This document shows positions 7,328 to 64,000 of a stretch of DNA of 64,000 nucleotides, piece after piece. Every line of letters starts with the position of its first letter. The stretch's first letter is position 1. The stretch is from Planctomycetota bacterium (GTDB lineage Bacteria > Planctomycetota > Planctomycetia > Planctomycetales > Planctomycetaceae), in the NCBI GenBank assembly GCA_003388505.1, contig QQVO01000036.1, forward strand, positions 62,001 to 126,000. The letters run 5' to 3'. The translations under genes and the position numbers were made by a program. The notes below the pieces were generated by a model. That model was not told the DNA's origin, made no database searches, and saw only the letters and a program-made list of their open reading frames with translations.

Positions 7328-8380
7328 ATGGAACGGATTCTCGATAAAGACCTCCCGCGCGACCGCGATCTTCTGATGCAACTGCGCTCCGCCGCCATAC
7401 GGCACCACAACGAGTGGAGCGCGGCATCTGAAGGATTCTGTGTCGGATTCGATGAGTTGTTGGCGTGGGAGCGACGCCCCGATACCGCATACTTGAAGGC
7501 GGCGGCGCAAGATGCCTTCCGTGCGAGCGGAAGTGGATTCGACGCGCCGGCCGGTGCCGTTCTCCCGCCCCTTGGGATGACCGACTGCCCGCAGGGTTTG
7601 GTTCGCCAGCGGGGCGACGACCGCCGTGGGCTGTCCGATCCAAAGGCGTCCTTCCCGTTGGACGCCGAGTTGAGACCATACGTCGGCGGCGCGTGGTCGC
7701 GCGCCGTCGCCCGGTTTGAAGCGCTGCGAACGAACGCCCTCCGGATGCTTCACGGTGGGCGGCTCATCCGCGACGTGCAATGCGCGTTTGCAGCCTTGTT
7801 GGGTGCGGTGGACGCAGTGCGAAATGAGGCCGAACGATTGCTTGAGGAACTGTCGGCGAGCACGGGGAATCCCCCTGCGGTCCATGAAGGCGCCACGCCG
7901 CCGGCGAGCGAGGCTGCGGAAGAATCTGCCCGAGACGCTGTCGACGTCAACGATGAGATTGAGGCGGCGAAGCCAATCAGCCCGAAGAGCAAGAGCGAAC
8001 AACGGGCGCGATGGCTTGCGGAAGCGATGCTGCTAGTTCGCGATCATCCTGACTGGTCCGATGCCAGTATCGCGGGGAAGGTTGGAAAGCATAAGTCTCA
8101 ATTGTCGCGCAGCCCGGAATACAAGGCCGCAGCGGCACTTGCACGCGAAAGTAAGGCGACGATACGGGAAGGCCACATCACGACCGATCCCGATGCAAAG
8201 TTGTCAGACGTGGAAGCCGTAGACCCCTCGACGGGCTGGTCCGAAAACAGAGCAGACCGTGGTGAAGCCATCCCAGGTTCAGAATATGTGCGGGAATACT
8301 GTTCCGAGTGTGGCGAGGCAATGAGGGTACTGCCGAGCAAGGTGGGCGCTCACTGCATCTGCGAGGATTGCCAGACCTAG
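7328..8380 (+). CDS. Hypothetical protein with HTH-like segment and C-terminal zinc ribbon
   Basis: A 350-residue protein. The N-terminal two thirds are helical and not recognised. Around residues 230-270 there is a helix-turn-helix-like stretch (ARWLAEAMLLVRDHPDWSDA, SIAGKVGKHKSQLSRSPEYK). The end has two Cys pairs (YCSECGEAMRVLPSKVGAHC, ICEDC), a treble-clef or zinc-ribbon pattern. The combination suggests a DNA-binding protein of the element, perhaps a regulator. It starts at ATG 7328, right after the inverted repeat described above, and its stop lies at the edge of the iteron-like repeat cluster. Confidence 0.5.
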   Translation: MERILDKDLPRDRDLLMQLRSAAIRHHNEWSAASEGFCVGFDELLAWERRPDTAYLKAAAQDAFRASGSGFDAPAGAVLPPLGMTDCPQGLVRQRGDDRRGLSDPKASFPLDAELRPYVGGAWSRAVARFEALRTNALRMLHGGRLIRDVQCAFAALLGAVDAVRNEAERLLEELSASTGNPPAVHEGATPPASEAAEESARDAVDVNDEIEAAKPISPKSKSEQRARWLAEAMLLVRDHPDWSDASIAGKVGKHKSQLSRSPEYKAAAALARESKATIREGHITTDPDAKLSDVEAVDPSTGWSENRADRGEAIPGSEYVREYCSECGEAMRVLPSKVGAHCICEDCQT

Positions 8381-8383
8381 AAA

Positions 8384-8470
8384 ACGCAACACGCAACGCA
8401 ACGCTCAACGGCTTCCCGTCGCGTAAATTCCGGTATTTGCGCGATTCGCAACGCAACGCTCACGCAACGC
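8384..8470. repeat. Iteron-like direct repeats, candidate replication origin of the element
   Basis: The octamer cgcaacgc recurs in two blocks. A 16-bp unit (cgcaacgcaacgctca) is present in two exact copies at 8392-8407 and 8447-8462, with single octamers or near copies on both sides (8384 and 8463 regions). Between the blocks is a relatively AT-rich near-palindrome (gcgtaaat tccgg tatttgcgc). The cluster directly precedes the AlpA/winged-helix/DnaC-like genes. Repeats flanking an AT-rich core next to replication genes are the usual look of an iteron origin. No binding data exist. Confidence 0.45.
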
Positions 8471-8510
8471 GGCACGTCCTTCGTCGAATTCTTCGATGAA
8501 AGGACCAACG

Positions 8511-8702
8511 ATGACCGCGAAACTCTCGGACTCCGCACGTGACGAAGCCGCGCAGATCGTCGCGCTCTTCTCAGTGCTGATTCATGCGTGGCGGACAGAC
8601 GCTGTTGACGAAGCAACCCGTGCGCATAGCGCATTAAAACGCTTGGGCGTCGAAGTGCAGATTTCTCCATGCGGACCGGCCCGTAAAGGGGGTGCCCAAT
8701 GA
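8511..8702 (+). CDS. Small hypothetical protein upstream of AlpA-like gene
   Basis: A 63-residue helical protein (MTAKLSDSARDEAAQIVALF, SVLIHAWRTDAVDEATRAHS). ATG 8511 is chosen because aaagga lies 7 bases upstream; ATG 8496 is an alternative. Its stop overlaps the start of the next gene (ATGA, 8699-8702), so translation is coupled. It is the first gene after the iteron-like repeats and may be the first of the replication operon. No family recognised. Confidence 0.5.
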   Translation: MTAKLSDSARDEAAQIVALFSVLIHAWRTDAVDEATRAHSALKRLGVEVQISPCGPARKGGAQ

Positions 8703-8935
8703 CCGCACCCGCCCTTCCTCCCCTGATGGTCTCCGCCGATGACGCCGCAGCGCTCATTGGCGTGAGTCCCGCGACGTGGCATCGGATGGTCGCCGCCGGG
8801 AAGACGCCGGCTCCCGTGCGTCTCTCCAAGGGGTGCGTTCGGTATCGAACGGCTGACCTTCAGCGCTGGTGTGAGGCCGGCTGCCCGGATCGAAAGACGT
8901 GGGAGGCGGACGAGCACGGGAGGCCGGCCCGATGA
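8699..8935 (+). CDS. AlpA-like / excisionase-type HTH protein
   Basis: A 78-residue protein with the classic MerR/excisionase-like layout: SADDAAALIGVSPATWHRMV, AAGKTPAPVRLSKGCVRYRT, then ADLQRWCE. This is the AlpA pattern (choose module, HTH, G..P.P..L..G..R.....L..W). In P4-type elements and phage-inducible islands AlpA activates the integrase or the replication operon, or acts as a directionality factor. Here it overlaps both neighbours by ATGA junctions, so it is translated with the replication genes. Candidate binding sites are the atggttgccgg repeats near attP or the 8.4-kb repeats. Confidence 0.75.
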   Translation: MTAPALPPLMVSADDAAALIGVSPATWHRMVAAGKTPAPVRLSKGCVRYRTADLQRWCEAGCPDRKTWEADEHGRPAR

Positions 8936-9687
8936 GCACGACGCCGAGCGCTTCGGAGAGCAACGGACACCACGCCGATGCGACCGACAATGCCCCCGCC
9001 GATCTGGCGTCACGTCAGCGGGCGATTCTCAGGGCGGGATTGCCGCCGCAAGAGAAGCTGCTACTGCTCACGCTGGCGCTCTACATCGGCGACAACGGTG
9101 AGTGCTGGGCGACGGTGGAGACGTTGCGGCGCGACTGCTCACTGTCGATTCGGCGGACTCACGTGCACCTCAAGTCGCTGAAGGACCGGGGAATCGTACG
9201 CAGTCGACGTCGGCGGAATGCTCCGTCTCTACGGTCGATCGTGTGGGGGCGGCTCGCCGCTCTCAACGTGACGCCAGCGGCACATTCAGATGGGCAGGAT
9301 GTGACGCAGAAGACACCCCGGATGTGCCGCCAGCGACACCCCGAATGTGCCGCGCACGACGCATCGGGATATGACGCAGACGACACACAGAAACAACAAG
9401 GAAACACCAAGAGAAACGACCAAGGAAAGGAATCTATGTCCCGCTTCCGCAAACCATCTGTGGAAGAGATTCGAGCCTACTGCCGAGAGCGGCGGAACGA
9501 CATCGACCCGGACCAGTTCTTCGACCACTACGAAGCGAACGGCTGGAAGCGGGGGAAGACTCCGATCAAGGACTGGCGCGCCTGCGTCCGCACGTGGGAA
9601 CGCAACCAGCAGGAAAGGAAACCCGATGCACGATCGAAACGAACAGGATCGGCGTACCGATACGCCGGCGACGACTCCGACATCTGA
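8932..9687 (+). CDS. Winged-helix replication-type protein (phage O/Rep-like)
   Basis: A 251-residue protein starting in the ATGA overlap at 8932. Residues about 25-95 match the helix-turn-helix found at the start of phage replication initiators: LLLLTLALYIGDNGECWATV, ETLRRDCSLSIRRTHVHLKS, LKDRGIVRSRRRR. A variable linker rich in polar residues follows, then a C-terminal segment (FRKPSVEEIRAYCRERRNDI, DPDQFFDHYEANGWKRGKTP, IKDWRACVRTWERN) that is typical of the tail of phage/plasmid replication O-like proteins and probably contacts the helicase loader. It precedes the DnaC-like gene, overlapping it by 62 bases. It most likely binds the iteron-like repeats at 8.4 kb; this is inference. Confidence 0.7.
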   Translation: MSTTPSASESNGHHADATDNAPADLASRQRAILRAGLPPQEKLLLLTLALYIGDNGECWATVETLRRDCSLSIRRTHVHLKSLKDRGIVRSRRRRNAPSLRSIVWGRLAALNVTPAAHSDGQDVTQKTPRMCRQRHPECAAHDASGYDADDTQKQQGNTKRNDQGKESMSRFRKPSVEEIRAYCRERRNDIDPDQFFDHYEANGWKRGKTPIKDWRACVRTWERNQQERKPDARSKRTGSAYRYAGDDSDI

Positions 9688-10495
9688 CGCGGCCACGGAG
9701 ACCCCGGCGGCGACCCGCCTCAGAGCCATCACAGCCGGCTTCGCAGATCAAGGAATGTCCCAGCAGGACGCCTATCAGATGGCAAGAGAACAACACTCCG
9801 AGCTTGCCGAGGAAGCGGATCGGGAAGCCGAACAACGTCGACAAGAGCGCGAACGGAGGGCTGAGCAAGAACACCGGGAGAAACTCGAATCGGTCGACTG
9901 GCCGAAGAAAGCGGGTCGGTTCGCCGGCTGCCGACTTTCGACGTTCACCATCCACGGGAGCAACGAAGAACAAGCGGCGCAACGGCGGGTCATTTCAGAA
10001 CTCGAAACCCTGAAGCTTGGGAAGACGATCGCAGACGGTCAGAATGTCGTCTTCGTTGGTCCGTGCGGAACGGGCAAGGATCATCTGATGCACGCGCTGG
10101 CGTTCCGGTCGTTTGTTCCACTCAACGGCAGAGTAGAAATCAGAAATGGAGCGGCTCTGAGACGGGAACTCCGGGACGCCGCGATGGCAGATGAAGGCGA
10201 GCGATCCGTCATCAATCGACTGATTTCTACGAAGCTGCTCTGTCTGTCCGATCCCGTCCCCGCCGGCGGAACCGAACTGACCGACTTTCAGGCGGACGCG
10301 CTGTACCACATTGTCAATGAGCGATGGAACGCCCGCCGGCCGATCTGGTGCACCGTGAATCTTCCATTGGAGCAGACACGGGAGGCGGCTGAACGGATTC
10401 TGACGGCCCCCGTCTGGGATCGCCTCAAGGACGGGGCCGTGATCGTCCGCTGCAACTGGCGAAGCTTCCGCAAGCACTCCGCAGTGATCGAATGA
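9626..10495 (+). CDS. DnaC/IstB-like AAA+ helicase loader
   Basis: A 289-residue protein from ATG 9626 (aggaaagga just upstream). The N-terminus is a charged coiled coil (residues about 45-85, rich in E/R/Q). Residues about 143-153 are Walker A (VGPCGTGKDHL), followed by ALAF, the hallmark of DnaC/DnaI/IstB ATPases. Walker B is weak (LLCLSDPVPAG). TVNLPLEQTREAAERI.TAPVWDRLKDGAV fits sensor regions in which the usual T.N step is retained. In phages and islands such proteins load the host DnaB helicase at the element's origin. Together with the preceding winged-helix protein it forms a minimal replication module without primase or polymerase. Confidence 0.75.
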   Translation: MHDRNEQDRRTDTPATTPTSDAATETPAATRLRAITAGFADQGMSQQDAYQMAREQHSELAEEADREAEQRRQERERRAEQEHREKLESVDWPKKAGRFAGCRLSTFTIHGSNEEQAAQRRVISELETLKLGKTIADGQNVVFVGPCGTGKDHLMHALAFRSFVPLNGRVEIRNGAALRRELRDAAMADEGERSVINRLISTKLLCLSDPVPAGGTELTDFQADALYHIVNERWNARRPIWCTVNLPLEQTREAAERILTAPVWDRLKDGAVIVRCNWRSFRKHSAVIE

Positions 10496-54885: not shown

Positions 54886-57800
54886 TCACCGAAGCCAGAC
54901 CTCCTCCGGCAGTCGCCACAGGAGAATGGGATTAGGAACGTCCTCGTTCGTAGCCACGCTGTTTTGTGACTCGTCAACCTTCCTTCCGCTGGCCGCAAAT
55001 CGTCCATCAGGAGTAATGTCGAGGCAACCTCCGCCGAGAAGACTCGGCACACGCGCCGGTAACTTCGCTTCCCATGTGACACTTCCGGTGTCGGCTGAAC
55101 GAACCTGCAGGATTGTTTGCCCTTCCCCTGCATTCAGTGAGACGAGGTTGCGTCCATCCGGGGCAAACACTACTGCGCCGCCTCCCCATACCCGATAGGT
55201 CTGATGCTGCAATTCGCCAAACAGGTCAAATTGCATCAGCTGCCAACTCTCGTTCGCCACGAGCACGACCGCCTCTCCATCCGGTCGTAGTCCGAGTGTA
55301 TAGGAGACCGTTCCTCCGTCGTCCGATCTCGACCGAAACGTCCGGACTTCCCGCCGCGTTGGAAGGTGGAACAGCTTCGTTGCGTACTCGGTGGACGGGC
55401 TGCTGACGAGCAAATGCTCCCCGTCAGGCAAGAACCGCATCGCTCCAGCCCAACCTTCTCCGTCCGCGCCGGGGAGTTCAAACTCGAGTCGGGGATTCGT
55501 CGACGCGGAGACGTCATAGATTTTCACACCTCCGCCGTCGATGTGCACCGCAAGACGATTCCCGTCCGGTGAGAACGCACTGGCATAGGCGACATTCCCG
55601 GCCCACGTCACTCGGCTTTCCATGTCACCCGTCTCTAGCTCGTAGAGTCTTGCTTCCCCTGCACACGAGACCGCCACGCGTTGCCGTCGGTTATCAATCG
55701 AAAGTCCATAGGCAATCCCGACGTCGATCACATGTTGCGCCGTCCCCGTTTCCAGATCCCAGATTCGCAGCGATTGGTCAACGGCGCTCACCGTTGCTAG
55801 GGTCTTTCCATCAGCTGCGAACTCTAGTCCGGTGATTATTCCAGTGTGACCATCGAGCGTTTGCAAAAACCCAGGCGGCCCATCCGGCAGCGGAGACTTC
55901 GCGAACGAGCCCACCGCTGGCGCGGTCGTCGAGTGCGCCGCAGCGGCTCTCTCGGAGAGACGCCAGACCCGAACCACAGGAATCTGTTCCTCGCTTTCGG
56001 GGACCGCGGTGACTCCCGACACGGCCAGAATTCGACTGTCCCACGAGAACGACACTCTCTCGACGGAGAATCCATCCAGCGAAAGGTTCTTGAGCCAGCG
56101 GTACGTCGTTCCGTCAAACAGCGCCAGGCCGTCGTTTGTGTTAGTCGCTGCGGCGATCAATGCGGAATCTGGCGACCACGCCAACGCCCTGCGATTGCCG
56201 CCGCTGCCGATGATCTGAGCATCCTGCCATGTTCTTGAATTGACTGCATAGAGCGGTTGACCCTCCCAGCAAGCGATGACGGCGCGATCATCAGCCCCCA
56301 TCACGATGCTCCCGCCGCCGGGTATGCCGTCGCATCGCTTCACATCGACCTCGCCCGACTCGGCCGCGATCTCGTAGATCGATCGTCCGCCGTCGTGCGC
56401 AGCAACGACGATCAACTTCCGGGAGTCGGTCGAGAACACGACTTGCAAATGCCACGGGTCGCCGAACTCAATCGGTATCTCCGCAACCAGTCGGCCGGTT
56501 TCCAGTTCCCAGACAGCGGCGCGACCCCGCATCATCACCGCGCCGATCCACCGCCCATCTGGGGACACGCACAAGGCTGTTGCCTGGCCCGACGAATCGG
56601 AAAACTCGAGGCGCTGTTTCATTTCCCACGGCTCGGTCGTCCAGACCTCAACCCGTCCGAACGCCCTGGCCAGCAAGACGTATCGGCCGTCGCTCGTGAT
56701 ATCCATGTCGTAGGCTCCCCCCCTGTCGGAAAGAAGCACGGGCGAGGTCGTCTCGTCGTCATCGAACTTGTAGATGTACTTCCCCATCGACAGATACGTC
56801 TCTCCCCCCTTTCCGGTCAGGACCAATCCGTTGGCGTGGAGGTCTTGACCTTCCAGCTCCGTAAACTCATAGGACAGGATCTCCTCGAATTCGAACTCGG
56901 TTGCGGACACCGGCTGCGAAGCGTTTGCCCCGGAGGAGCCGGGTGCGCCGCCCTCCGCAACGTGATCTGCCGGATTCTGAGTGCGGTTCGCCAGTCGCAT
57001 TCCGCTTGCGTCAATGTGCAAGACCGGCCTGGTTCCCTTCTCGATCGTGAAAGTCTGCGGATTGTGGACGATCGTCTCGCCGTTCCTCACCGAGAAACCG
57101 TGCTCTCCCAGTGTCACTGTGACCTCCATGCCCGGACCGGTGAGGGTGTACTCGTCATCGTCGACCGAGAGTGACAGTTCACCTTTCTGGTCCTCCAGCC
57201 AGGCGTCGTTGACTTCAACGGCCAGCGTGCGGCTGCCGTGCTTGAGGTAGAACACGACTCCCAGATACACCGTGCCGCAAACCAGGCAGAAGCATAAAGC
57301 GCCGATCAGCAGCCAGTTGTCCCAGATGCTGCCGCTCGAACGCGGCTGGAGCTGTCCGCTCTTGTCAAACTGGTACCTGCGCTGCTTCAAGGGGACTTTG
57401 GCATACGTCCTGATCGCCTCCCGAAGCTCCCTGGCGAACTTGTTGCCCGGTTTGAGTTGGAGAAACCGCTTCAGGTTGTCTTCAATCCCCTCCAGTTGAC
57501 GGGTGCGGACGCATTCCTGCAAAGAGAGGAGCAAAAGGTCGGACTCCTCTTGGAGTTCTACGGCGTTGTCGAGCGTCTTCTGGACTTCCGCGCTACGGAA
57601 GTCCGGGGGAATTTCCTGTAAAAGCTGAGCCGCCTGGCCGTAGTCCTTTCGGACTATTGATTGCTTCGCGGTGGCCAGGAGGGACGGAACGGCGGCCTGA
57701 AGCCGCCGGGGAAGTTTCTTGACTTCAGGGAGCTGGTTGCGAGCCCAGGCCACATAGTTCGCTGTTCCCGGTCCTTGCAATTTCTGCATCTTTTCCATGG

Positions 57801-59010
57801 CCGCCACGGCCTGCGCATGCTGCCCCCGTTGAATCAACCCTACCACGTTGGACTTCATCGATTCGCACTTTGCGATGTTCTCCGCCTCCTTTGACTGTCG
57901 TACGCGATCTCCAGTTGAGTTGTTCTTGAGCCATGATTGAAGAAAATCCACCACCTCTTTCATCGACTGAGGCCGCCGCTCCGGCTCCTTTTCAAGCATT
58001 CGCAAACAGAAATCGGCCAACTCCGGATCGACGTCGGGACGAAGTTTCTTAAGCGGTCGCGGCCGCTTCTGAAGCGCTTGATTCAGGACGACCAGCGTCG
58101 ACCCCTGAAATGGAATGCGCCCCGTCAGAAGTTCGTAGAACACGACCCCCAGTGCATAGACGTCGCTGTGCGGACCGATCCGGTCGAGTTCGGATCGGAT
58201 TTGTTCGGGGGCCATATAAGCCGGAGTTCCCAGAAGGGCCCCCTCATGCGTCAACTTCGATTCCTGCCGGTCTTGAATCCGCGCCAGTCCGAAGTCCGTC
58301 ACGCACGGCGTGTCACCGTTCTGCATCAGCACGTTTCCGGATTTGACGTCTCGGTGCAGGATGCCGCGCTCGTGCGCCGCCTGCAGGCCCGATGCAATCC
58401 CCTTCACAATTTCCACGATTCTGCGTTCGTCGTGATAGGCAGCAGTGCCCACGCACTGTGAGAGCGGCGGGCCGTCGATGTACTCCATCGAAATGAACGG
58501 AGTTCCGTTGACGTCGCCCGCGTCATAGATGCGGCAGAGGTTCGGATGTTCCAACCGGGCTGCCGCCTGCGCCTCCCGCGTGAACCGTTTCAGGAACTCC
58601 TCGCCGTCCGTTCCTGTCCCCTTGGGAATCTTGAGCGCGACCCGACGATCAAGCTGCGTGTCTTCCGCCAGATAGACGGTGCCCATGGCGCCCTTTCCCA
58701 GTTGGTGAACGAGCCAATACCGTCCGAATTGCGATTGCGGCGCAAAGTCGGTCCGTTGAGCGCCGCCGGGACGCATTGTCTCGGCCGACCGGAGATCTCC
58801 GGAGTCGACGTCGGCACGGTCCGAGAGCGCATCCAGCAGTCCCTCTCCCTCCGCATACGACCTCAAGCCGTCTGCGAGATCGGGATACGACGCGCAGAAG
58901 GATTCAATGTCGACCGACTCGCCGGCTTCGCGCCGCCGAATGTACTCGGCCAGCACTCCGTGCAGAGTGAACTCCCCCGCGAAACCATGCCGCCCATCTT
59001 CATGACTCAT
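54886..59010 (-). CDS. Ser/Thr protein kinase fused to a WD40 propeller, membrane-spanning
   Basis: A 1374-residue Hanks-type kinase. Kinase residues: glycine loop (LGKGAMGTVYLAEDTQ), K127 (VALKIP), catalytic D221 (HRDVKSGNVLM), D239 (DFGLAR), GTPAYMAPEQ activation end. The N-terminal 90 residues contain YIRRREAGESVDIESFCASY, common in planctomycete kinases. A helical spacer (about 360-560) and one membrane helix (NWLLIGALCFCLVCGTVYLG, about residue 570) follow. The outer part is a WD40-type propeller from about 720 to the end (FSDSSGQATALCVSPDGRWI, GHTGIITGLEFAADGKTLAT, LRIWDLETG). It should carry signals across the membrane. It starts 8 bases after the sigma-factor gene stop. Confidence 0.93.
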   Translation of the reverse strand: MSHEDGRHGFAGEFTLHGVLAEYIRRREAGESVDIESFCASYPDLADGLRSYAEGEGLLDALSDRADVDSGDLRSAETMRPGGAQRTDFAPQSQFGRYWLVHQLGKGAMGTVYLAEDTQLDRRVALKIPKGTGTDGEEFLKRFTREAQAAARLEHPNLCRIYDAGDVNGTPFISMEYIDGPPLSQCVGTAAYHDERRIVEIVKGIASGLQAAHERGILHRDVKSGNVLMQNGDTPCVTDFGLARIQDRQESKLTHEGALLGTPAYMAPEQIRSELDRIGPHSDVYALGVVFYELLTGRIPFQGSTLVVLNQALQKRPRPLKKLRPDVDPELADFCLRMLEKEPERRPQSMKEVVDFLQSWLKNNSTGDRVRQSKEAENIAKCESMKSNVVGLIQRGQHAQAVAAMEKMQKLQGPGTANYVAWARNQLPEVKKLPRRLQAAVPSLLATAKQSIVRKDYGQAAQLLQEIPPDFRSAEVQKTLDNAVELQEESDLLLLSLQECVRTRQLEGIEDNLKRFLQLKPGNKFARELREAIRTYAKVPLKQRRYQFDKSGQLQPRSSGSIWDNWLLIGALCFCLVCGTVYLGVVFYLKHGSRTLAVEVNDAWLEDQKGELSLSVDDDEYTLTGPGMEVTVTLGEHGFSVRNGETIVHNPQTFTIEKGTRPVLHIDASGMRLANRTQNPADHVAEGGAPGSSGANASQPVSATEFEFEEILSYEFTELEGQDLHANGLVLTGKGGETYLSMGKYIYKFDDDETTSPVLLSDRGGAYDMDITSDGRYVLLARAFGRVEVWTTEPWEMKQRLEFSDSSGQATALCVSPDGRWIGAVMMRGRAAVWELETGRLVAEIPIEFGDPWHLQVVFSTDSRKLIVVAAHDGGRSIYEIAAESGEVDVKRCDGIPGGGSIVMGADDRAVIACWEGQPLYAVNSRTWQDAQIIGSGGNRRALAWSPDSALIAAATNTNDGLALFDGTTYRWLKNLSLDGFSVERVSFSWDSRILAVSGVTAVPESEEQIPVVRVWRLSERAAAAHSTTAPAVGSFAKSPLPDGPPGFLQTLDGHTGIITGLEFAADGKTLATVSAVDQSLRIWDLETGTAQHVIDVGIAYGLSIDNRRQRVAVSCAGEARLYELETGDMESRVTWAGNVAYASAFSPDGNRLAVHIDGGGVKIYDVSASTNPRLEFELPGADGEGWAGAMRFLPDGEHLLVSSPSTEYATKLFHLPTRREVRTFRSRSDDGGTVSYTLGLRPDGEAVVLVANESWQLMQFDLFGELQHQTYRVWGGGAVVFAPDGRNLVSLNAGEGQTILQVRSADTGSVTWEAKLPARVPSLLGGGCLDITPDGRFAASGRKVDESQNSVATNEDVPNPILLWRLPEEVWLR

Positions 59011-59018
59011 GGATGACC

Positions 59019-59630
59019 TCAAGCATCGGTAATTCCGTGTTGTTTCAGGATCGCTTTGAGTTCCTTCATTCCGCTGATCAGCATTCTTGCGACAGCGCTT
59101 TCTGATCTTCCGAGTTGCCGGGCGATCTCCGCCATCGTGAGGCCGTCCAGGTGTTTCATCCGCATGACAACCCGCCATTCGTCAGTCAATTGATCGATCG
59201 CTTCCCGCACGATGCGGTGGTGCTCACGACGCATCACTCGACGGCTGGGAGAAGTTTGCCGCCCGGGAGCCTGGCGGATTTCGTGGCTCGCGTCTTCCTC
59301 TCGATCGATGCTTCGCTTGGCAGTGAATTTCTCGCGTTGCAGCAATTCCTGAATGTCGTGCTCCAGAATCCGGCGAACCCACTGCACGAACTCAGCGCCC
59401 GACCGGCCTCGGAATTGAGGTATGTCCTCCAAAACCTGAATCAGCACCTTCTGCACCAGGTCGGAACCATCCGCGCGGACGCGGAGCTTCGGCCCCAGTT
59501 CCTGATCAATGATCGGTCGCAGTGAATCTCTGAGTTGCTGCAGCAACGCGCTACGGGCCGCTTCATCTCCCTCACGTGTATGCTGCAGCGGTCGATCGAA
59601 TTTCTCAAAACCGCTCTCATTGTTCGCCAT
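59019..59630 (-). CDS. ECF-like RNA polymerase sigma factor (kinase-linked)
   Basis: A 203-residue sigma factor from ATG 59630 with gggagtggag just upstream. Region 2-like part: ALLQQLRDSLRPIIDQELGP, DGSDLVQKVLIQVLEDIPQF, SGAEFVQWVRRILEHDIQEL. Region 4: AIDQLTDEWRVVMRMKHLDG, LTMAEIARQLGRSESAVARM. Planctomycetes have ECF groups encoded beside Ser/Thr kinases and thought to be controlled by them; here the kinase gene follows by 8 bases, so the pair is one operon. No anti-sigma factor gene is adjacent. Confidence 0.93.
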   Translation of the reverse strand: MANNESGFEKFDRPLQHTREGDEAARSALLQQLRDSLRPIIDQELGPKLRVRADGSDLVQKVLIQVLEDIPQFRGRSGAEFVQWVRRILEHDIQELLQREKFTAKRSIDREEDASHEIRQAPGRQTSPSRRVMRREHHRIVREAIDQLTDEWRVVMRMKHLDGLTMAEIARQLGRSESAVARMLISGMKELKAILKQHGITDA

Positions 59631-60644
59631 CTCCACTCCCGGCAATTCCTCAGGCAGAATCTCAGCACGATTCCAGCGGAGAAAGTCTCCGCAAATCGAC
59701 ATTTTTTGCGAATAGACGCAACTCATATTACAATAAAGAGTTGCACATGCCCGTACACATGCGCTGCCGGAGAAGTTTGCCTCGCCACGAGTCGATCGCA
59801 TGCCTCACGGCTGTGATCCGTGAGTTTTCTCCCAGAGATCGTCATAGGTCGGTTGCGCTTCCTCGGCGCACCTGCTCATACGGGTCTCTGAAATCGACGG
59901 ACATGATGTTTGCGCAACACAGAGTCGTGGCGGGTCGATGCAACTTTTTCGGATGGAGCGTTTCTCAGGAAAGCAAGAATACCACAGAATTTCCTGCAAA
60001 TTCGCGGTTCAGCGCACCCGATCATTCCCCCAGCGCAACTCTGCACGATTCACTGAGGAGCCCACCGCACGGACGACTCACACCCCGCATCGGCCGCCAA
60101 ACATGTGCGTCACCCGCTTCGACCCGCCCATCCTGCCCACACCCCGCGCACGAACTCGGCGAATCCCAAACACCGGCTCCCGCACGTCTTGGCACACGTT
60201 TTCCCAAAGAGTTAAAGACTTGCCCGAATCTCCCGGAAAACAACGCACCCAACCCTTTAACAACCCTCTCAAACCCCAAACAAGAACCGCCGCCACGCCC
60301 TCTCATCTTTGCGTCTTCGCGCCTTTGCATGCCGCCCCCGCCGGGTGCCACTGGCGTTCCGCCGGTGCCTTCCCAACTCCTGCCGATTGCTCGAAGCGAA
60401 ACCCTCCGGCGCACCGCCGCCCCCACAGGTAGAAGGCGCAAACAACAACGTTCATGTGGCCCGGACGGGTGGCACGACCCAGAACGGAATGCAATGGAGT
60501 GATGGGCGTGGCTGGATGCCGCGTTGACGCGCATTGGCAACACGTAACTCGCCGCGAAATTACGCGAGGCACCACGCCCAGCTCGAACGCTCCATGAAAA
60601 CCGAAACCGAACAGCGACAACCAGGCAACTGAGGCCACCAGCCC
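59631..60644. other. Intergenic, about 1 kb, no gene seen
   Basis: Between the sigma factor start and the FliF stop. Short minus-strand frames (for example 59805-59999) lack good start signals. A repeat related to the tgccactggc family lies near 60346. The sigma/kinase operon promoter should be at the left end. Confidence 0.4.
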
Positions 60645-62633
60645 TCAAGCCAGATCCAGCGCCAGGCCGCTCAGGATCTCCCGCTGCGCCGTCTCGACGT
60701 CGTGCAGCCGCATCGGCCGCCGGGTGCGCAGTGCCTGCTGCAGTCGCTTTGAATCGTCGCGGGGGAGCGTCTCGCTGAGATGTTCCTGGACGGCGTCCGA
60801 TGCCCCGACCAGCGCGGCCGCCCAGGTGTCGCTGGAGGTCTGCTGAAACAGCCGGCACAGCCGGGCCGGGTCGCAACGCAGGATCTCTTCGATGTCGACC
60901 GGCGCATCATCGGGCACTTCGGAGGAACGCAGCCGGAATCCGGCCAGTCCAATCGCTGGCTCAGCCGCATGGGAGACGTCGGAAATCGGCTGATTCGCCT
61001 GACCGGCCACCGGCGACCGGCTCTCCGCCGCATGCGGAACGGCAGTCGCGCGGCCTTCATTCGCATGATCCGCGATCTCGAAGCGCGTCTCGTGAATTGT
61101 CGTTGCCTCTTCGCTGCTTTCCTTGCCGGACGGCTCCTGCAGCAGCGAGGCGAGGGCCTCCGCCAGGCGGTCGGACGAAGCGCTCGCTGCGCCGCTCGCT
61201 CCGGCGTCCGAGGGTGTCGGCTCCGGTGCGGAGGATGCAGGCTGGGTCTGCTCGCCGTCAGCGGTTTGCTGAGGCAATGCCTCTTCCCCGCCGGCCGGCA
61301 GCGGTTTCGGTGGCGTCACTTCTCTGACCACCAGCCGCCGCGCCAACCAGTACGCCGACCACAGGCAGACTCCCAGAACGAGCGTCGCCATCACCCAGGC
61401 CGACCAGCGGTGCTGCTGCAACACGCCCGAGATCCAAGGCCATGCCGCGACCGGTTCGCTGACCGCAGCCACCGCCGCAGGTTGCGGTGGGTCGCGATAG
61501 GCCGCCACCTCCACGACGGGAGCAGAGGAAGCATCGAGGCGGCCGTCGAGCGCCCGCGTCACGCGCTGCTGCACGTCGCGCACGACCCGCTGTTCAACCT
61601 CCTGGCGTGCAGCGTGCAACTGATCTGCGGCGATCTGCCGCCCTGCGGTCTGTTGCCCCAGCAAGCCGTTGAAGTACGACTGCGGCACCGAGACCTGCAC
61701 GGACACTTCATGCCTCGCCACGGTCGGGGAAGCGACTCCCGGCTCAGACTCATCAAGGGGAGGCAACTCCATCCGGGCGTTCGGCGCAACGGCCGGCAGT
61801 TCCCAATCGTCGGGCGATCCATTGACCTCGGAAGATTCCGTGACAACCACCGCGACGCGAACGCCCGTGATGTGAGCCAGCGCATGTTCGACCCGCCCGC
61901 GACAGGCGGCCGTGAAGCGAGCCGCCGATTCCGAACCGCCGCTCCCGCCGGCCAGCGACTCATCACCGGAGTAGGTCACCATGCTCCGCATGTCCATCAC
62001 GGCCACGTCCGCCGGATCGAGATGGGCCTTACTACCCGCGACGGCCGTGCGGACGGCTTCCACCGTCTCGGGGCTCAGGAGATGTCCTTCAAGCGGCTTC
62101 AGATAGACGGTCGCCCGCACCTTGGGCGGCTTCCGCCAGCCGATGCGGGCTTCTTCGTCCCACACGATCTCGGCCGAGTCGATCCCCGGCAGTTCACCCA
62201 GCAGCTTGCTCAGCAGTTCGGCGCGGGCGATCTCCCCGGCGTCTTTCCGCTGTCGGCTGAGCGCAAACTGGCTGAGCGACGAATTCGCTTCACGCCAGGT
62301 GTCTCCCCAACTGTGCGGCCCGTCGGCTTCGTCGGCCGCGACCGCGTCGTACCGGTCCACGTCGGCTTCCGGCGCCAGCAAGCGGGAGCCGTCCACTTCG
62401 TACTCGGTCAGCCCGGCCGCATCGAGCTGGCTGGAGATTTCATCGATCTCCGAGGGAGGTAGCGATCGCCCACCCAGGGCGGGGACCATCTTCGACGAGG
62501 CCGGCCTGAGCAGCAGCCAGCAGAGCCAGCCACCGATCGCCGCCGCGCACAGGATCACGGTGCACCGTTGTGCAAACGGCATCGAACGATAAACGGCCAG
62601 AAGCTGATCGCTCGTGGCTCCGGAAACCTCCAT
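60645..62633 (-). CDS. fliF: Flagellar M-ring protein FliF with FliG C-terminal-like extension
   Basis: A 662-residue FliF. The order is: first membrane helix (CTVILCAAAIGGWLCWLLL), periplasmic ring-building parts (LPPSEIDEISSQLDAAGLTE, LLGELPGIDSAEIVWDEE, VRATVYLKPLEGHLLSPETV, KAHLDPADVAVMDM), a Pro/Ala-rich linker region, and a second helix (WVMATLVLGVCLWSAYWL). The cytoplasmic tail is about 220 residues, much longer than usual, and ends (about residues 580-662) in DIEEILRCDPARLCRLFQQT, WAAALVGASDAVQEHL, RPMRLHDVETAQREIL. That matches the FliG C-terminal pattern (ALKGA, GPVRLSDVE..Q..IL). Most charged torque residues are not kept. The upstream gene is a sigma-54-activator-like regulator. 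Confidence 0.85.
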   Translation of the reverse strand: MEVSGATSDQLLAVYRSMPFAQRCTVILCAAAIGGWLCWLLLRPASSKMVPALGGRSLPPSEIDEISSQLDAAGLTEYEVDGSRLLAPEADVDRYDAVAADEADGPHSWGDTWREANSSLSQFALSRQRKDAGEIARAELLSKLLGELPGIDSAEIVWDEEARIGWRKPPKVRATVYLKPLEGHLLSPETVEAVRTAVAGSKAHLDPADVAVMDMRSMVTYSGDESLAGGSGGSESAARFTAACRGRVEHALAHITGVRVAVVVTESSEVNGSPDDWELPAVAPNARMELPPLDESEPGVASPTVARHEVSVQVSVPQSYFNGLLGQQTAGRQIAADQLHAARQEVEQRVVRDVQQRVTRALDGRLDASSAPVVEVAAYRDPPQPAAVAAVSEPVAAWPWISGVLQQHRWSAWVMATLVLGVCLWSAYWLARRLVVREVTPPKPLPAGGEEALPQQTADGEQTQPASSAPEPTPSDAGASGAASASSDRLAEALASLLQEPSGKESSEEATTIHETRFEIADHANEGRATAVPHAAESRSPVAGQANQPISDVSHAAEPAIGLAGFRLRSSEVPDDAPVDIEEILRCDPARLCRLFQQTSSDTWAAALVGASDAVQEHLSETLPRDDSKRLQQALRTRRPMRLHDVETAQREILSGLALDLA

Positions 62634-62735
62634 TCGACGTTTCCTCGAGGTTCAAGAGTGAAGCAAGCCAACCAAGCCCGCCGGTCGCGACCGGCGGGAT
62701 CGAGATCATGCGACCGAGTCGGCTGCACCCGCCGC

Positions 62736-64000
62736 TCACGCAGCCCGCGAGACGCGATTCGAGCCCGGCCCGCCGCGCGGCGGATAGCCGTACTCCCGCA
62801 GCTTGCCGGAGAGCGTCCTGAGTCCGATCTTCAGCGCCCGCGCGGTCAGTTCGCGGTTGCCGTTGAACCGGTTGAACGTCGCCTCGATGAGCTTCCGCTC
62901 CATTTCGCGGAGCGACAGGCCGACGTCGTCCGGGCTGATCTCGGACGGCGTTTCGAGCCAGGTCGTCACGATGTCGGAGGTGAGCACCGGATCGGTCGTC
63001 AGCGAACAGCCCCGCGCGATCACGTTCTCGAGTTCCCGCACATTGCCGGGCCAATGATGCGCCTGCAGCCGCTGCACGGCTTCGGCCGCGAGTTGCTTGG
63101 CGGGACGTCCCTCGCGGGCCGCGAAGTCGGCCAGAAAATGTTCGGCCATCGGAGCGATGTCGTCCGGCCGATCGCGAAGCGCGGGCACAGTCACGGTATG
63201 TCCTGTCAGACATTCGTAAAGCTGGTCGTCGAAACTGCCGTCGCGGGCCATGTCGTGCAAGGGGGCGTGCGTGGTGGCGATGATCTGCGGCGGAGACTCG
63301 ATTTGTTTCAGCGCCGCCGCCAGCCGCGCCTGCACCGAAAGCGCCAACGCATCGACGTCGTCGAGCAGCAGAGTCCCTTCGCTCGCGGCAGACAGGCGGC
63401 CGCGGCTTTCGTGACCTTCGCCGAACAGCGCGGCTTCGGCCGCCGACGCGGCCAGCACTTCGCAGCGGACCGCCATCAGCGGGGCGTGCTCGCCCTTGCG
63501 GATCGAGTGAATCGCCCGGGCGATGAACGTCGTCCCGCTGCCCGATTCGCCCTGCACGATCACCGGCCGGTCGTCTTCGGCGATTTCGCGAAGCTGCTCC
63601 CGCACCTTTTCAATGCCGTCGCTGTAGCCGATCAATTCGGGCCAGAGTCGCACGTCGCTTTGCTGCTTGAGTTGCTGATTCTCCGAGACCAGTTGCGAGC
63701 GGCCGACGGCTGCGAACAGGGCGCGGCCGATCCGCTCGGGAGTGTGGGGAGGTTCGAGCACTTCGGCGTTCAGTCCGACGAACTGGCCGCGCGGCGCCGT
63801 GATGGCCGGCAGCACGACAACCTGCGTCGAAAGGCCCGCTGCTTCGATCGCGTTTGCGACCATTTCGACGAATCCGGGCGACTCCGGTTCGTCGAGGATG
63901 CAGGCCGCCGGAGAGATGCCGGCCAACAGGTCGCACAGGCTGTCGGCCGACTCCGCCTGGGTGACATCGAAACCCTGGCGGCCGACCGCTTGCGCGATCT
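62736..64000 (-). CDS. NtrC/FlrC-like regulator with degenerate ATPase, 5' end cut by the window
   Basis: The frame is open from 63998 to a stop at 62736; the true start lies outside. An N-terminal receiver-like part (FDVTQAESADSLCDLLAGIS, ACILDEPESPGF) is followed by an AAA+ domain and a C-terminal Fis-type HTH (IEATFNRFNGNRELTARALK, GLRTLSGKLREYG). The AAA+ domain is altered: Walker A reads GESGSGTTF (lysine replaced by threonine, 63528-63551), Walker B reads LLLDDVDAL, and the GAFTGA loop is absent (LFGEGHESRGRLSAASEGT). The order of other blocks (RPDDIAPMAEHFLADFA, HHWPGNVRELENVI) is normal. It precedes fliF by about 100 bases on the same strand. Confidence 0.85.
   Translation of the reverse strand, partial: IAQAVGRQGFDVTQAESADSLCDLLAGISPAACILDEPESPGFVEMVANAIEAAGLSTQVVVLPAITAPRGQFVGLNAEVLEPPHTPERIGRALFAAVGRSQLVSENQQLKQQSDVRLWPELIGYSDGIEKVREQLREIAEDDRPVIVQGESGSGTTFIARAIHSIRKGEHAPLMAVRCEVLAASAAEAALFGEGHESRGRLSAASEGTLLLDDVDALALSVQARLAAALKQIESPPQIIATTHAPLHDMARDGSFDDQLYECLTGHTVTVPALRDRPDDIAPMAEHFLADFAAREGRPAKQLAAEAVQRLQAHHWPGNVRELENVIARGCSLTTDPVLTSDIVTTWLETPSEISPDDVGLSLREMERKLIEATFNRFNGNRELTARALKIGLRTLSGKLREYGYPPRGGPGSNRVSRAA

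Follow-up and report, generated by a model that had tools for sequence, protein, structure and literature searches.

Results

A fliF-fliG fusion gene downstream of an NtrC-type regulator

The window, i.e. the whole stretch of DNA analysed here, comprises 64,000 nt of contig QQVO01000036.1 (assembly GCA_003388505.1, positions 62,001 to 126,000, forward strand) from a planctomycete genome labelled G000. Close to its end lie a fusion of fliF with part of fliG and a regulatory gene, with the following features (window positions):

60645..62633, minus strand: fliF-fliG fusion gene, a single open frame of 662 aa with an ATG start
62508..62564, minus strand: first transmembrane helix, residues about 24-42 (hydropathy; helix at 20-42 in the model)
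61983..62462, minus strand: YscJ_FliF periplasmic ring-building region, residues 58-217 (Pfam PF01514; full-length model)
61326..61403, minus strand: second transmembrane helix, residues about 411-436 (hydropathy; model)
60897..61325, minus strand: linker on the cytoplasmic side, residues 437-579 (largely disordered in the model; helix at 482-497)
60669..60896, minus strand: FliG_C domain, residues 580-655 (Pfam, phmmer, AlphaFold tail model, alignment)
62634..62735, minus strand: gap of 102 bp between regulator and fusion gene (same strand; possible operon)
62736..63998, minus strand: NtrC-type AAA+ regulator with HTH_8, clipped at the window edge (complete at L002:7736-9088, 450 aa)

The fusion protein shows the features of FliF, namely the YscJ_FliF domain (37.9 bits against a Pfam cut-off of 24.4), two transmembrane helices and ring-building motifs; over its full length it does not reach the NCBIfam FliF equivalog cut-off. 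The model of the whole protein is poor overall (pLDDT 60.5, pTM 0.27); its first matches are FliF MS-ring structures, and its tail leads to FliG. About 226 residues follow the second transmembrane helix, and the protein has 662 aa compared with 500-577 aa in nearly all intact unfused FliFs of relatives, in agreement with a first-pass annotation of this DNA, which had described the tail as longer than usual. GC content is highest at codon position 3 and lowest at position 2 in nearly every block of the gene, including the junction and the linker. This coding pattern of the frame, together with the presence of the same fusion in independent assemblies and in other genera (see below), rules out an assembly or frameshift artefact.

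The regulator lies upstream of fliF in the same direction, an arrangement also seen in genomes G010, G027, G028 and G036. The GAFTGA loop is absent in all five regulator copies checked (the window, L037, L041, L136 and L139), and activation of sigma-54 in the usual way is therefore doubtful; a search for a -24/-12 motif near the fusion-type loci gave nothing. Elsewhere in the window, 54886-59178 (minus strand) encodes a large kinase-like protein whose second half contains repeats, and this gene overlaps an RNA polymerase sigma-factor-like gene (59019-59801, minus strand) at the end of the latter.

The tail is a FliG C-terminal domain

The first-pass annotation had recognised a FliG C-terminal pattern in the tail of FliF (60645-60893, correctly delimited as residues 581-662 plus the stop codon) and had proposed a profile search and a structure prediction, both of which support it. 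FliG_C (PF01706) matched residues 580-655 with 49.3 bits (E 6.7e-13, cut-off 23.3), and phmmer on the tail retrieved the FliG chains 1lkv, 4fhr and 3ajc (E about 4e-6 to 5e-6). Residues 565-662 were modelled with AlphaFold (pLDDT 83.7); the model has six helices in an ARM_C-like fold, and its 17 best matches in the PDB were all FliG (Foldseek), the first 16 with probability 1.00, TM about 0.7 and rmsd 1.5-2.6 A; owing to the small size of the domain, the Foldseek E-values were only about 0.001-0.1. The whole-FliG family TIGR00207 was far from reached (20.3 bits, cut-off 226.7), FliG_C alone being present. A weak, sub-threshold match to MgtE_N in the tail might suggest that FliG_C was hit by chance or that another helical-repeat domain is involved, but the fold of the tail model is that of FliG, FliG_C lies above the cut-off in eight further fusions, and fliH-fliI follow the fusion gene in several relatives, so that we regard this explanation as practically negligible.

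A MAFFT alignment with the Thermotoga FliG and 15 FliGs of relatives was used to read the residues that carry torque-related charges. Where E. coli has Lys264, Arg281, Asp288, Asp289 and Arg297, the fusion protein has V, D, Q, A and R, exactly as first annotated, with only the Arg297 equivalent kept; in all 15 FliGs of relatives the corresponding residues are K, R, E, E (one N) and R/K.

An export gate without detected motor or filament genes

The draft of genome G000 has 6.8 Mb in 78 contigs and is 98.76% complete; absences reported for it are based on HMM or tblastn searches, which very diverged versions could escape. The fusion gene is the sole FliF and the sole FliG_C detected, and profile searches gave no match to FliM, FliG_M, MotB_plug, Flg_bb_rod or Flagellin_N, although searches for these components give matches in E. 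coli, B. subtilis, Caulobacter and Thermotoga. A separate FliG with intact charges, which the first-pass annotation had proposed to look for elsewhere in the genome, was not found in G000. The genes fliG, fliH and fliI had been noted as missing downstream of the fusion, and none was detected anywhere else in G000 either: a chimeric query for FliI and FliH yielded F1-ATPase-like matches at 31-33% and other P-loop ATPases, and the same query found FliI at 45-61% identity in G010, G028, G030, G034, G036 and G054. It missed a small SpoA-like ORF in G003 and is thus a weak test for FliN.

The export gate is represented in G000 by FlhA (one copy), FlhB, FliP, FliQ and FliR, accompanied by FliO and FlhF. 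FlhA adjoins FlhF and a FliA-like sigma factor, and FliO, FliP, FliQ, FliR and FlhB are clustered on another contig. FlhB, of 260 aa, ends before the self-cleaving NPTH C-domain (its profile is covered only to 221/335). FlhA aligned over the whole family model (782 bits) and is close to that of motile relatives; at 53-64% amino acid identity, the codon positions of FlhA and FliP vary in the way typical of purifying selection. The fusion protein diverges fast (34% identity between G000 and G028, with codon position 2 changed at 46%), and selection on it is therefore weaker than on FlhA.

Fusions recur in related genera in graded forms

The main sample comprised 59 planctomycete genomes, and the class-wide FliG_C survey 219 genomes (among the matches listed). 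Further fusions were found in six genera (G006, G009, G028, G030, G036 and G054), so the natural fusion of the M-ring protein with FliG that had been suspected from the window alone is real and recurs. The fusion is the only FliF in G000, G006, G009, G030 and G054, and stands beside a normal FliF and FliG in G028 and G036. In two genomes of genus g35 (G191 and G229) FliF is joined to a complete FliG (N, M and C domains), and in G034, of the same genus, fliF and fliG are separate with a 4-nt overlap. The FliF of G027 runs off the contig end in a stretch that resembles FliG_M by eye, but Pfam finds FliF alone, and it is therefore just a probable fusion. In five genomes (G009, G030, G054, G191 and G229) fliH and then fliI follow the fusion gene, which is the classical place of fliF-fliG.

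Arranged by domain content, these loci form a series of overlapping genes, FliF-FliG(NMC), FliF-FliG(MC) (G006, G009, G030, G036 and G054, with a degenerate FliG_M in the linker region of G036) and FliF-FliG(C) (G000 and G028), which brings together forms from related genera and need not be the path that any one lineage took. In the seven reduced fusions, i.e. the MC and C forms, the lysine at K264 is absent without exception (7/7) and most other torque charges are gone too. The two full-length fusions and the unfused FliGs of G010 and G034, which belong to systems without a detected stator, keep the lysine and have lost some of the other charges.

Mapped on the FliF tree, the fusion label needs five to six changes, and a single fused clade was rejected by the AU test (p 6e-13, or 1.8e-4 with G027 counted; several branches are long), suggesting that the fusion probably arose several times. 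A single origin followed by descent alone thus appears unlikely on the tree, with the number of origins kept uncertain by the long branches.

Some loci proved to be of another kind. A 729-aa frame in G046 is an extended frame that runs over a separate fliF, and a weak match in G045 (23.4 bits, 950-aa frame) falls in an ORF of 948 aa that does not encode FliF. The FliF entry for G023 proved to be the wrong choice and is left out. In G046 (L043, family f2; 8178-10324, plus strand) fliF and fliG are separate, the FliG consisting of N and C without M, and the genome has no MotB, rod or flagellin match. In G003 (L138, 1846-4106, plus strand) fliF is followed by a 206-aa FliG_M-like remnant, and the FlhB of this genome has NGMA in place of NPTH.

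Fusion and loss of the motor

Matches to MotB, rod and flagellin are absent in 5/5 of the genomes whose only FliF is the fusion; for MotB this compares with absence in 13/51 genomes without a known or probable fusion (Fisher p 0.002, kinship ignored). FliM is absent in three of the five. It is missing in G000, which has no FliG_M, but also in G009, G030 and G036, which kept FliG_M, and the link between the two losses is therefore loose. The first-pass annotation had raised the possibility of a rotor that unites ring and torque domain in a single chain. Such a working motor, with a diverged stator and filament, could draw on the engineered FliF-FliG deletion fusions of Salmonella, which still rotate (PMC6445934), but with MotB, rod/hook and flagellin in 0/5 fusion-only genomes, no FliM or FliG_M detected in G000, and the charges lost throughout the reduced fusions, we consider it very improbable. 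The other proposal made there, a FliG paralogue reused for assembly, holds in part: reuse fits better than a rotor, but the domain is the last remaining FliG of its genome and not a paralogue.

G028 and G036 each encode two FlhA, two FliF and one MotB, and the fusion system therefore stands beside a real flagellum there. FlhA occurs without any rod, flagellin or MotB match in 16/59 sampled genomes, and the FlhAs of such systems nest at several places inside one flagellar FlhA type (FlhA tree); flagellum-free export gates seem to be common in this planctomycete class. As a separate observation, three adjacent flagellin_N ORFs are present at G010:C88:8925-12372, in a genome that is 79% complete and has no rod or MotB match.

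The stepwise loss of components, the degenerate FliG_C and FliG_M, the missing FlhB C-domain and the fast divergence of the fusion could all be expected of a decaying relic, i.e. a flagellum in the course of being lost, with a functionless fusion and functionless leftover export genes. However, every remaining gate gene is an intact ORF, FlhA is full-length and near that of motile relatives, FlhA and FliP have the codon pattern of purifying selection, flagellum-less FlhA is found in as many genomes as stated above, and G028 and G036 carry such a system next to a real flagellum; we therefore think a relic unlikely.

Discussion

We consider it likely that the product of the fusion gene is FliF joined to the last FliG domain in a planctomycete that has no flagellum and retains the export gate. 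Our best reading is a repeated conversion of the flagellum into a non-rotary export gate, in which the fused FliG remnant would be a static cytoplasmic collar. In a normal flagellum the FliF C-terminus and FliG_N together attach FliG to FliF; with the covalent FliF-FliG link this joint would become dispensable. The fusion itself, the lost charges, the presence and absence of components, the recurrence and the graded loss of domains can be read from the sequences, whereas we infer ring assembly, a collar role and the export of a substrate: FliF subunits would assemble into an MS ring that surrounds the FliPQR-FlhB-FlhA gate, and the fused FliG_C domains, as a static collar beneath ring and gate, would stand in for the joint and no longer contact a stator. 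Where there is no stator, FliG_C would not take part in generating torque, in line with the loss of its charges. Since no FliI or FliH was detected in G000, putative export would be driven by the ion gradient through FlhA, and since the FlhB C-domain, rod, hook and flagellin were not detected there, presumably no substrate switching takes place and no filament is built. The path would have led from a flagellum through stator loss, fusion of fliF and fliG, and loss of FliG_N to the losses of FliG_M, FliM and FliH/FliI, the order of these last losses being left unfixed by the data.

Alternatively, the gate might be a platform and not a secretion channel, e.g. a nanotube base resembling a FliPQR-FlhBA core or a regulator of other surface machines, a role reported for FlhA, FlhB, FliR and FliI in Lysobacter without flagella. 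The retained gene set is near the core gate, an MS ring with a FliG remnant would serve as an anchor, and in Lysobacter enzymogenes, which lacks flagella, flagellar T3SS genes affect twitching and still export flagellin (PMC7277350). The Lysobacter system uses FliI, however, which was not found in G000, and we judge a platform improbable.

The conversion to a non-rotary export gate can be compared with several known systems. Flagellar FliF and FliG, which build the MS ring and the C ring, share with the fusions the same domains, the same fold and, in the relatives, the fliF-fliG place before fliH-fliI; the fusion in the window differs in being one chain from which FliG_N and FliG_M are missing, with no FliM or stator partner found. 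An engineered Salmonella deletion fusion (fliFGd-f), in which FliF without its C-terminus is joined to FliG_M-FliG_C without FliG_N, assembles and rotates (PMC6445934), and its domain order is the natural order in G006, G009, G030 and G054. It is, however, man-made and works in a complete motor, whereas for the natural fusions neither a stator nor a filament was detected and torque charges have been lost; the one in the window lacks FliG_M as well.

Export systems without motility elements have been described before. Myxococcales keep an intermediate, non-flagellar T3SS (Abby and Rocha, PMC3459982), which is likewise flagellum-derived; here, unlike there, the FlhAs nest within planctomycete flagellar FlhA and an FliF-type MS ring is retained, and no FliI was detected in G000. 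The non-flagellated L. enzymogenes OH11 keeps flagellar export genes, with FliI present and needed, and no FliF-FliG fusion is described in the available part of the source (PMC7277350). Chlamydia pneumoniae keeps FliF, FlhA and FliI without a flagellum, and the C-terminus of its FliF binds the cytoplasmic domain of FlhA (PMC2830194); the chlamydial FliF is short (342 aa), FliI is kept, and FliG is not mentioned in that report. Flagellar assembly genes are reported to be poorly represented in non-motile Isosphaeraceae (PMC5352709). Flagellar export genes without flagella (Lysobacter and Chlamydia) are already known, and in the open-access literature searched we met no description of a natural FliF-FliG fusion.

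The fusions described here provide a natural counterpart to the well-studied engineered FliF-FliG fusion and show which part of FliG is kept once torque is not needed, and the system of G000 is a candidate minimal export gate without FliI/FliH. How a flagellum turns into a secretion device is an old question that is usually argued from injectisomes of ancient divergence; in these Planctomycetes, related genera display the steps side by side. The broader proposition, that Planctomycetes repeatedly made non-rotary and eventually ATPase-less export machines, in several of which an ever smaller FliG was fused to the MS ring, seems to us evenly balanced. If it is true, these bacteria would have given rise to a line of their own of secretion systems derived from the flagellum, in which every step is still represented by living intermediates.
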